Of a DNA stretch of 64,000 bases, positions 46,093 to 48,505 are shown one piece after another. The notes beneath the pieces are model-generated. The model made no database searches. It worked only from the letters and a program-made list of their open reading frames with translations, and was not told the DNA's origin. The position numbers were made by a program, and so were the translations under genes. The stretch covers positions 2,232,001-2,296,000 of the forward strand of contig NZ_CP021913.1 of the NCBI RefSeq assembly GCF_002814095.1, written 5' to 3'. The stretch is from Sagittula sp. P11 (lineage in GTDB: Bacteria; Pseudomonadota; Alphaproteobacteria; Rhodobacterales; Rhodobacteraceae). The first letter of the stretch is position 1. Every line of letters starts with the position of its first letter.

Positions 46093-46566
46093 TCAGTTGA
46101 CGGTTTCGGCGTCCACGACATCCTTCTCGACCGCCTTGACCTCCGGCTTCGCGATCTCGATCCGGCGCGGCTTCAGCGCCTCAGGGATCTCGCGCTTCAG
46201 GTCGATGTGCAGCATGCCGTTCTCATGGGTGGCGCCGGTGACGCGGACATGGTCGGCAAGGTGGAAGCGGCGCTCGAAGGCGCGGGTTGCGATGCCGCGG
46301 TGCAGGTAGGTGCGGCCCTCGTCCTCGTCCGCCTTGCGGGCCGAGACGACCAGCGCGTTTTCCTTCACCTCGACGCCGAGGTCGCTGTCGGCAAAGCCGG
46401 CCACCGCGATGGAGATGCGGTAGGCGTCGTCGGCGGTCTTCTCGATGTTGTACGGGGGATAGCCCGGCTGCGGCGCGTCGTTGGACAGGACGCGGTCCAT
46501 CATCTCGGCCAGCTGGTCAAAGCCGACGGATGCACGGTAGAGCGGAGCAAAATCGAAATGTCGCAT
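46093..46566 (-). CDS. small heat-shock protein Hsp20 (IbpA type)
   Basis: A 157-residue alpha-crystallin-type chaperone that holds unfolding proteins. The N-terminal arm begins MRHFDFAPLYRASVGFDQL, as in IbpA-like class A sHsps. The crystallin domain (about 37-125) holds the IbpA-type start YPPYNIEKTADDAYRISIAVAG, RGIATRAFERRFHLADHVRV and MLHIDLKREIPE. ATG 46566 is preceded by TGGAGGA. The leader shows a heat-type promoter and a ROSE-like thermometer fold. A terminator follows at 46040. Confidence 0.92.
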   Translation of the reverse strand: MRHFDFAPLYRASVGFDQLAEMMDRVLSNDAPQPGYPPYNIEKTADDAYRISIAVAGFADSDLGVEVKENALVVSARKADEDEGRTYLHRGIATRAFERRFHLADHVRVTGATHENGMLHIDLKREIPEALKPRRIEIAKPEVKAVEKDVVDAETVN

Positions 46567-46660
46567 GGAATCCTCCAGTTGAGCGATACCTGTGTCCGGC
46601 CTTCCCATCGGGGACAGGCCGTATTTCCAGTTCCCGGAACCCTGTCAGAGGCGTTCCGGT
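46567..46660 (-). promoter_or_regulatory. ROSE-like RNA thermometer leader of hsp20
   Basis: The ~94-nt leader can fold into three hairpins on the minus strand. First, CCGGAAC-N12-GTTCCGG (46659-46634). Second, CGGCCT-G-TCCC-loop-GGGA-AGGCCG (46621-46597). Third, GGUAUCGCU (46590-46582) paired with AGGAUUCC (46574-46567), which buries the AGGA ribosome site. The UCGCU matches the UYGCU motif of ROSE elements, with one bulged G opposite AGGA. This is the architecture of alphaproteobacterial ROSE thermometers. Folding was done by hand. Confidence 0.6.
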
Positions 46661-46666
46661 ACAGGA

Positions 46667-46696
46667 AAATTGGGAATGTCGCGCGCGCGTTTCAAG
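46667..46696 (-). promoter_or_regulatory. sigma-32-type heat-shock promoter for hsp20
   Basis: On the minus strand CTTGAA (46696-46691), 16 bp, then CCCAATTT (46674-46667) resembles the RpoH promoter (CTTGAA and CCCCATNT). Predicted transcription start near 46660, at the first base of the first leader hairpin. Confidence 0.6.
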
Positions 46697-46710: not shown

Positions 46711-46745
46711 GAAAAAGCGCCCCGGAGACGGTTCTCCGGGGCGCT
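46711..46745 (-). terminator. rho-independent terminator of the autotransporter gene
   Basis: AGCGCCCCGGAGA-CGGT-TCTCCGGGGCGCT is a perfect 13-bp stem with a 4-base loop (46716-46745). On the minus strand it is followed by TTTTTC. It is 24 bp after the autotransporter stop and just before the hsp20 promoter. Confidence 0.9.
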
Positions 46746-46768: not shown

Positions 46769-48505
46769 TCAGAACTTCATTTCGTAGCCGAGGCCGACGG
46801 TGCCCATGCGGACGTTCTCGCTCTTGGAGCCGGCGAGGGTCATGATGACGCGGCCGCCCGCCTTGGTGTCGATACCGAAGTTCAGGGCGAGGTCGAAGCG
46901 GTCGTCGTCGGTGCTGCCCGGCGTCGCCGTGACGGTGCCGCCGCTGTTGACGTCGATGTCCTCGTTCATCACGCGGTTCCACGAGAAGTCGACATCGGTG
47001 TGCAGGGCGCCGAAGCTGACCGGCGTCGTCTTTTCCCAGCGCACGCCCAGCTTGCCGAAGGTCGTGGTCTGGTCGTAACCCGGGACGATGGCGCCGTTGC
47101 TTGCGGTGAAGCTGTCGACTTCCAGCATTTCGCGCGACACGCCGACATAGGGCATCAGGATGTTCGCGGCGTTGCCGCCGAGGGCAAAGCGCTGACCCAG
47201 CTCCAGAGAAGCGGCGCGGTAGTCGCTCTCGGTGGAGCCGGACGCGGTGCCGGTCGGGAACAGCATGGTGTAATCGTGGTCGGTGCGGCCGGCGGTGATG
47301 TCACCATACAGCTGCAGGCCGCTCGCCGCCTGGTACAGGCCGTAGATGTTCGCCGTCTTGGTGTCGCTGTCGGAGTCGAAGCCGCTGGCGTCGCTGGACG
47401 AGTTCAGGCCGCTGAACGCGATACCGGTGCGGAACAGGTACTGCTGCGTCTGGAAGGTGTAGTCGGCGCCGATGGTCAGGCCCTTGCCGCTGAGGTCGGT
47501 GCCGCCGGAGGCGGAGCCGGACGATGCGGTGGCAAAAGCGTAGCCGCGCAGGCCTTCGATCCCCAGCATGTCGTTGACGATGGCATTGCCCTGGGTCGAG
47601 TAGAAGCCGCCGGTGCCGATGTAGCTTTTCACCAGCGCCAGGATGCGGATCTGCGCGCGGATGTTCTGCGCGACGGTCATCGAGGAGTTGCGGAAGATGT
47701 CGGTGGTCAGGATGAACTTGATCCCGCCATCTGTGGCCGCGTTGATGACGCAGGTCTGGAAGGCCAGCGCGAAGGCCGCGGCGGCGTCGCCGCCAAGCCG
47801 CAGCTGGTTGAGGTCGGCGACACAGCCGCCGTTGGTGGCCAGCGCGAGGTCGGCGTAGTCCGCTTCGGTCGTGCCGAAGCCGCCGGTGAAGCTGCCGTGT
47901 GCGGTCGAGGTAAAGGTGGTGCCGGTCTGCACCAGCGTGGTGGTGCCGTCGGTGGAGATCGCGGTGTCGTTGTTGGCGTCGAGGATACCGATGTCGACCA
48001 TCGCGACGAGGTTCGCACCGGCGGTCTGGATCGCGCTCAGCACGTCTGCGAACAGGAGGCTGCCGCCGGTGGTGTCGTCACGGTCTTCGTCGGTGATAAG
48101 CACCAGCGTCGTGTTGCCGGCGGGGATCGTGTAGTTCTTGAGCACGTAGTCGATGGCGGCATAGCCGTCTTCGGTGCCGCCCGGCGTGGTCAGGTTGGTC
48201 GTCGCCGCCGAAAGGTCCGTGGCGTTGCCAAGCTGGCTGCCGCCGATGCTGAACTCGCGGATCAGGCCCGGATTGGTGGAACCCGCGGCAAAGCCCATCA
48301 GGCCGTAGTTGCGGCTGCCGAAGCCACCGACAGCCAGCGCGGCGTCGAGGTCGAGCACGAACTGAGTCAGGAAGTCCTGCTCGCCGGACATGGAGCCCGA
48401 CTCATCCATCATGAAGATGATGTTGGAGGTTGCGCTTTGCGCGTGCGCGGGCCCGGCCAGGGCGAGCGTCATCGCCGTGGAGGCTGCGAGAAAAGTCTTG
48501 AACAT
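46769..48505 (-). CDS. autotransporter with von Willebrand A passenger domain
   Basis: A 578-residue outer-membrane protein. The signal peptide ends at AHA-Q (residue 22). The passenger is a vWA domain (about 27-290) with a MIDAS-type motif NIIFMMDESGSMSG and LVLITDEDRDD. The C-terminal ~280 residues form an autotransporter beta-domain with alternating strands (GLTIGADYTFQT, RAASLELGQRFAL, LPYVGVS-type segments) and a terminal aromatic (GYEMKF). It probably exposes the vWA domain for adhesion. The vWA-to-barrel fusion is unusual. It has a strong terminator and an A8 tract upstream. Confidence 0.83.
   Translation of the reverse strand: MFKTFLAASTAMTLALAGPAHAQSATSNIIFMMDESGSMSGEQDFLTQFVLDLDAALAVGGFGSRNYGLMGFAAGSTNPGLIREFSIGGSQLGNATDLSAATTNLTTPGGTEDGYAAIDYVLKNYTIPAGNTTLVLITDEDRDDTTGGSLLFADVLSAIQTAGANLVAMVDIGILDANNDTAISTDGTTTLVQTGTTFTSTAHGSFTGGFGTTEADYADLALATNGGCVADLNQLRLGGDAAAAFALAFQTCVINAATDGGIKFILTTDIFRNSSMTVAQNIRAQIRILALVKSYIGTGGFYSTQGNAIVNDMLGIEGLRGYAFATASSGSASGGTDLSGKGLTIGADYTFQTQQYLFRTGIAFSGLNSSSDASGFDSDSDTKTANIYGLYQAASGLQLYGDITAGRTDHDYTMLFPTGTASGSTESDYRAASLELGQRFALGGNAANILMPYVGVSREMLEVDSFTASNGAIVPGYDQTTTFGKLGVRWEKTTPVSFGALHTDVDFSWNRVMNEDIDVNSGGTVTATPGSTDDDRFDLALNFGIDTKAGGRVIMTLAGSKSENVRMGTVGLGYEMKF

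Follow-up and report, generated by a model that had tools for sequence, protein, structure and literature searches.

The hsp20 locus

The window analysed here is a 64,000-nucleotide stretch of the 5.58-Mb genome of Sagittula sp. P11 (contig NZ_CP021913.1, positions 2,232,001 to 2,296,000). On its minus strand we found a gene for a small heat-shock chaperone, hsp20, preceded by a heat-shock-type promoter and by a leader with three hairpins that covers 94 nt from A46660, the predicted transcription start, to C46567 (Table 1). The start codon is the ATG at 46566-46564. The best NCBIfam match of the protein is IbpA, at 164.7 bits and under that model's cut-off of 212, and its closest titled relatives among the matches listed, from Mameliella, Cognatishimia and Citreimonas, are 83-86% identical.

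The gene located 5' of hsp20 (46772-48505, minus strand) encodes a VWA-like domain together with an autotransporter beta-barrel in one protein, and the terminator-like hairpin lies between this autotransporter-type gene and the hsp20 promoter. An in-frame ATG at 46608, within hairpin II, would lengthen hsp20 to 171 aa (46608-46567 being the extension, minus strand); automatic gene callers could choose it, thereby masking the leader.

Two sets of hsp20 leaders were compared. Hsp20 matches were present in 51 of 61 genomes, and the best 30, own copy included, are the loci L003-L032, where L003 is the window's own leader and L004 comes from the same genus. The second set, fetched separately, holds the leaders of the best 80 of 586 titled candidates (79 distinct sequences); because only these best 80 were taken, it favours close relatives.

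Table 1. Coordinates of the features at the hsp20 locus, in positions of the window.
Feature	Position	Strand	Basis
Terminator-like hairpin and T run (12-bp arms 46744-46733 and 46728-46717; T run 46716-46712)	46712..46744	-	By eye
-35 element CTTGAAA of the heat-shock-sigma (RpoH/sigma-32 type) promoter	46690..46696	-	Sequence; conservation in leaders
-10 element CCCAATTT	46667..46674	-	Sequence; like layout before clpB and second hsp20
Predicted transcription start	46660	-	Inferred from position 7 nt downstream of the -10 element
Hairpin I, bulged G at 46652	46634..46659	-	Folding; covariation (helix 1)
Hairpin II, GGCCUGUCCC/GGGAAGGCC, bulged G at 46615	46598..46620	-	Covariation (helix 2); present in Rfam ROSE_2 consensus
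Hairpin III, predicted thermosensor masking the ribosome site, bulged G at 46584	46567..46590	-	Helices 3 and 4; predicted opening
Anti-Shine-Dalgarno UCGCU (ROSE motif UYGCU)	46582..46586	-	Sequence
AGGA of the Shine-Dalgarno sequence	46571..46574	-	Sequence
hsp20 (IbpA-like small heat-shock chaperone, 157 aa)	46093..46566	-	PF00011, 71.6 bits (cut-off 20.8)

A conserved heat-shock-type promoter

The promoter can be read as CTTGAAA-N15-CCCAATTT or, equally, with CTTGAA-N16 (CTTGAA at 46696-46691 and N16 at 46690-46675, minus strand). The latter is how the initial annotation had given it, together with a start at about 46660, a 94-nt leader, the UCGCU and AGGA motifs and flanking GG/CC pairs, and all of these coordinates hold in the sequence. 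A CTTG-type -35 and a CCCA-type -10 element at fixed spacing, as found upstream of hsp20, characterize RpoH (sigma-32) promoters according to the E. coli consensus. Within the window, CTTGAA-N15..17-CCCA occurs once against 0.13 expected. Across the whole genome, CTTGAAA-N14..17-CCCANNT has a single occurrence, at hsp20, and the reversed control pattern has two, so the promoter pattern alone shows no genome-wide enrichment.

Support for the proposed sigma-32-type promoter comes from its recurrence at the same place, from the RpoH genes and from like layouts elsewhere in the genome. The strict pattern is present in 26 of the 30 leaders L003-L032 and in 71 of the 80 titled relatives (best 80 of 586 candidates), and [CG]TTGA[AC] lies upstream in all 110 leaders of these two sets, own copy included. 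A CTTG-N18-CCCA layout recurs in the genome before clpB (CTTGAAGGGCTGCGCAAACACGCCCATTT) and before a second hsp20. One RpoH gene scores 371.4 bits, above the curated cut-off of 323.1, and another, RpoH-like gene falls short of this cut-off with 273.9 bits; we take a third match to this model, at 143.5 bits, for RpoD. In Rhodobacter sphaeroides, the -35 regions of RpoHI and RpoHII promoters share a conserved TTG, and the sequence preferences of the two factors are reported not to be mutually exclusive (PMC3441632). To judge from its sequence, the hsp20 promoter is probably of the RpoH type, and either RpoH candidate could serve it.

The RpoH-type pattern used gave no match upstream of the groES gene of the same genome (L103), which is preceded by an inverted repeat, TTAGCACTC..GAGTGCTAA, that we take to be CIRCE. 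Since clpB (L104) has the RpoH-type pattern and groES lacks it, two heat-shock branches seem to be split in this genome.

Conservation and covariation of the leader

We built a covariance model, R1, from the two same-genus leaders L003 and L004. In 104.5 kb of sequence it recovered 26 of the 30 leaders (24 of 28 without the seeds); weak antisense matches in L003 and L004 (plus strand, E 0.1 and 0.19) were dropped. The alignment A5 contains 25 of the 30 leaders and omits L016, L017, L021 and L026, which R1 did not reach, and L023, which carries a long insertion. The refined model R2 derives from 25 leaders and recovers the four that R1 missed. Pairs were counted on model-fitted alignments because in some rows of the MAFFT alignments A1 and A2 hairpin II was one base out of register. 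Model-fitted alignments lean towards the structure, and a control with partners slid by one column answers part of that: pairing in the 25 leaders then falls to 65.3% or 58.6%, from 96.1% of cells over the 25 pairs in register.

In these 25 leaders, 17 of the 25 pairs show double-sided changes, and the covariation score is 0.428 against 0.160 in shuffled alignments, a value reached by none of 500 shuffles. The 80 titled leaders (best 80 of 586) gave a similar picture: 95.6% of pair cells are paired, double-sided changes total 285 (86.5 in shuffles), and the covariation score is again 0.428, shuffles giving 0.166 and none of 500 reaching it; pairs with double-sided changes numbered 14 against 11.5, a count reached by 4 of 500 shuffles. 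Helix 1, which forms hairpin I, is paired in 97.7% of cells in the 25 leaders and 96.6% in the best 80 of 586, with changes on both sides in seven and six of its nine pairs, respectively. The corresponding values for helix 2 (hairpin II) are 94.1% and 93.0%, again with seven and six of nine pairs. A leader of three hairpins, as initially annotated, is thus borne out by covariation in two alignments. The pairs of the Shine-Dalgarno core barely vary, three of five never doing so in either alignment, and covariation therefore favours hairpins I and II above the sensing hairpin. The best single covariation in the core of hairpin III comes from L022, where UUGCU opposite AGAA represents one compensatory change.

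What the third hairpin lacks in covariation it shows in constancy. UYGCU with AGRA is kept in all 110 leaders (L003-L032, own copy included, and the best 80 of 586 titled), and among the latter 80 the anti-Shine-Dalgarno sequence is UCGCU in 79 and UUGCU in one. The motif alone proves little, since the window has a single UYGCU-N7-AGGA where 0.65 would be expected by chance. Its conservation places it above chance level: UYGCU stands in place at 35 of 36 AGGA..ATG sites of hsp20 leaders and at only 2 of 130 other such sites in the same 31 sequences (the window and L003-L032, so that the window's own leader is counted twice). That UYGCU opposite AGGA defines ROSE elements, as the initial annotation held, agrees with the description of ROSE-like elements in PMC3669281. 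Its flanking GG/CC pairs fared less uniformly. In the window, GG 46590-46589 can pair with CC 46568-46567 on the minus strand, and the two positions are G-C in 46 and 35 of the 79 distinct sequences (best 80 of 586 titled); many of the remaining sequences carry other standard pairs there, so these G-C pairs are common without being universal.

The same alignments bear on whether the leader might be coding, with translation beginning at ATG 46608 and the fold incidental. The 171-aa frame is indeed open from that codon, but the length of the region varies between relatives, the changes preserve RNA pairs, no purine-rich ribosome site is apparent by eye before 46608, and the Hsp20 match begins at residue 1, with ATG as the codon, in 30 of 30 loci L003-L032. 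We give this explanation almost no credence.

Relation to the Rfam ROSE families

R2 matched all 80 titled leaders (best 80 of 586) at the leader, and 79 of them are absent from training. One, L139, has exactly the sequence of a training row, and the remaining 79 are less than 0.8 alike to any; the median best likeness of these best 80 of 586 to training rows is 0.63, and shared ancestry remains in the comparison. In 18 further hsp20 leaders, 14 of which come from other families, 15 were matched at E <0.001, L065 at E 0.026, and L073 and L075 gave no match. Over 96 genomes of the class, own genome included, 23 have a match at E <=0.01. Twelve of these 23 (own included) were examined as loci and all twelve matches lie directly before hsp20; in four more, the matches in G039, G045 and G051 coincide with hsp20 positions and that in G048 does not. 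The second-best match in the own genome, at E 6.36, was set aside as being at chance level. R2 also has matches in Paracoccus denitrificans (L082, E 4.1e-7) and, weakly, in Shinella (L083, E 0.12).

Of special interest are two Rhizobium leaders, L080 and L081, which R2 matches modestly (E 0.0018 and 0.0024) and in which RF00435 (ROSE) matches at the same place with 48.2 and 49.0 bits, above its gathering score of 45. They precede hsp20 genes that match the protein of the window at 53.8% and 56.2%. On these sequence comparisons, in which the R2 matches are modest, the leader shares common descent with accepted ROSE elements. For SMb21295 of Sinorhizobium meliloti, a ROSE element was observed as a transcript of the leader (PMC2873474). 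R2 matches the hsp20 leader of pSymB from this species (L079) at E 1e-4, and this leader is probably that very element; L079 was not among the matches of RF00435 at E 0.1.

The initial annotation had suggested a covariance search with the Rfam ROSE families, which do not recognize the leader at their gathering scores. A gathering-level Rfam search of the whole window gave no match; RF01832 (ROSE_2) reaches 18.4 bits at the leader against a gathering score of 65, and RF00435 is not listed around the leader up to E 10 nor anywhere in the own genome up to E 0.01. Apart from ROSE_2 at the site, the strongest match below threshold was Scr1601 (plus strand, 18.4 of 100 bits), which we regard as chance. 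Among the 20 loci of L003-L032 that were scanned, neither ROSE family reached gathering level, and ROSE_2 appeared at E <=1 in two (L011, 31.3 bits; L013, 25.0 bits). Over the 96 class genomes, RF00435 at E <=0.01 has matches in six, none above the cut-off, and four of the six precede hsp20. RF01832 at E <=1 gives 15 matches in 11 of 61 genomes, of which six, including the top three and that of the window, are hsp20 leaders, and none of the 61 genomes has a match at the gathering score. In the own genome the leader ranks second for RF01832, after a site of 22.0 bits overlapping a 519-aa open frame. The same model gives a match in E. coli, whose ibpA is described as the founding gamma-type member of ROSE_2 (PMC3669281).

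Because the leader has the sequence and structure features of ROSE-like elements (PMC3669281), namely a place before a small heat-shock gene, three hairpins where two to four are usual, and an imperfect pairing of the Shine-Dalgarno sequence with UYGCU in the hairpin nearest the 3' end, we read the failed gathering scores as a detection limit. At these scores the Rfam ROSE models overlook these strongly covarying Rhodobacterales leaders, which R2 connects to rhizobial ROSE; RNA-thermometer annotation is for this reason incomplete in this abundant marine group.

A ROSE-like leader, L089 (~1498-1573), was matched in the alphaproteobacterium G102 by both RF00435 (32.6 bits, gathering score 45) and R2 (31.5 bits, E 1.7e-5). 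It precedes a short frame starting MIQLNEAYRP that has no Hsp20 match.

Predicted response to temperature

The folding energy of the leader is -41.2 kcal/mol, where shuffles average -32.26 (z -2.75, one of 200 shuffles being as good), in keeping with the structured leader initially proposed. For the last hairpin, the proposed pairing of UCGCU with AGGA around a bulged G stood at low temperature, where it is in the minimum-energy form of five out of five fragments at 20-30 C. It did not stand in the 101-nt fragment at 37 C, whose minimum-energy form is a competitor in which UCGC pairs with GCGA after the AUG and UGGA with UCCA, using codons 1-3. Among the five fragments, this competing hairpin prevails in two at 37 C and in three at both 42 and 47 C. 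According to the energy model, opening AGGA in a 121-nt fragment costs 3.79 kcal/mol at 25 C and 2.53 kcal/mol at 42 C, and the open fraction rises about tenfold. As evidence this is weak, since any hairpin would show such a direction, and the model makes no provision for the non-canonical pairs found in ROSE elements. Opening of hairpin III on heating is a prediction of modelling.

We propose that the hsp20 5' leader is a ROSE-type RNA thermometer driven by an RpoH-type heat-shock promoter, with a probability of about 0.92. At low temperature, hairpin III would pair UCGCU with AGGA around the unpaired G and so keep the ribosome off, and hairpins I and II, both stable and rich in G+C, may keep the leader in its masking fold. 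On heating, hairpin III would loosen and the hsp20 mRNA be translated, at a time when its synthesis would also be increased via RpoH.

Could heat control instead be entirely transcriptional, through RpoH, the leader being a stable folded 5' UTR whose role is limited to tuning mRNA lifetime or the basal level of translation? In favour of this, conservation of the RpoH-type promoter is good, and melting is only predicted, with a modest predicted change. Against this, no part of the leader is kept more strictly than the UYGCU/AGGA pairing with its bulged G (80 of 80, best 80 of 586), two relatives from Rhizobium count as ROSE elements in Rfam at the corresponding place, and in tested Pseudomonas ROSE elements the same hairpin melts and suffices for the temperature response (PMC3669281). 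We therefore consider such an arrangement very unlikely.

Bulged Gs and a possible Hsp20 feedback

In each hairpin the bulged G is unpaired, in the 5' arm and just after a pyrimidine. It is conserved in hairpin I of 80, hairpin II of 76 and hairpin III of 80 of the 80 titled leaders (best 80 of 586). A near-invariant bulged G in all three hairpins was less expected; the passage of PMC12857270 on ROSE elements treats the bulge opposite the ribosome site only. In addition, the two inner C-G pairs of hairpin I are invariant in the 79 distinct sequences (best 80 of 586), where the outer pairs vary widely. The leader might then be a repeated bulged-G module, for stepwise melting or as an Hsp20 binding site, so that control by a heat sigma factor, by melting of the RNA and by feedback from the protein would converge on one leader; we hold this combined scheme to be doubtful. 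The role of upstream hairpins in ROSE elements has been called not fully understood (PMC3669281), and a bulged G in every hairpin offers a concrete handle on their function.

A somewhat better prospect, which we still consider rather unlikely, is that the leader is also, or mainly, a feedback target: free Hsp20 would bind it and repress translation until titrated by aggregates, as has been reported of E. coli IbpA. Such a role is conceivable, given that IbpA of E. coli acts via its leader to repress its own translation and that the needed residues are said to be conserved in alpha-proteobacteria (PMC10474464). The invariant inner GCC/GG of hairpin I exceeds what pairing needs. We also count in its favour the residues of the window's Hsp20 that look like the matching ones, presumably R95 and Y36. 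On the other hand, the invariant parts could serve folding alone, and Hsp20 binding is putative. A feedback of this kind adds to the RNA thermometer and does not replace it.

The second hsp20 leader

The second hsp20 of the genome (G000:C1:1547246-1547635, leader L041) has its own CTTG-N18-CCCATAT promoter. Its leader and those of 19 relatives (L042-L060) are shorter and have UCGCU facing AGGA or AGGG. The four core pairs were found in 19 of the 20 by script and in the twentieth, L060, by eye, the script having taken a coding UCGCU. Sixteen of the 20 also have a YGCC/GGG-type hairpin with at least four outer pairs; the own copy has only three. In the own leader, the paired AAGGA sits upstream of a nearer AAAGGA. 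R2 gave no match in the 20 leaders L041-L060 at E <=0.01, and RNAalifold found no structure in their MAFFT alignment, which is poor and has several rows cut short. This leader may be a shorter ROSE-like element.

Comparison with known ROSE systems

Predictions of ROSE-like elements extend to over 40 small heat-shock genes from alpha- and gamma-proteobacteria (PMC3669281, PMC4166951, citing Waldminghaus 2005). The rhizobial ROSE family (RF00435) resembles the present leader in belonging to a related hsp20 leader and in having several hairpins and UYGCU facing the ribosome site, and R2 matches two of its accepted members. It differs in that B. japonicum ROSE1 has a hairpin IV (PMC3669281) where three hairpins are found here, and in that RF00435 does not list this leader. 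ROSE_2 (RF01832) shares the GGCCUGUCC/GGAAGGCC hairpin followed by the Shine-Dalgarno region; however, the score of 18.4 bits is far from 65, the extra 5' hairpin I lies outside the model and the Shine-Dalgarno hairpin aligns poorly.

The short ROSE-like thermometers of Pseudomonas ibpA combine sigma-32 transcription with ROSE-like control of translation and also have G-C pairs flanking the core, but they comprise two hairpins instead of three and rest on experiment, where our reading rests on sequence and modelling (PMC3669281). Closest in taxonomy is the Roseobacter-clade strain Nautella sp. R11, which has two small heat-shock genes, ibpA and hspD, both preceded by ROSE-like motifs; the passage concerned is a single sentence, without structure, covariation or promoter (PMC3230580). 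As ROSE-like motifs have thus been reported in a Roseobacter and the combined control by sigma-32 and ROSE is established in Pseudomonas putida (PMC3669281), the hsp20 leader of Sagittula sp. P11 is of a kind already known.
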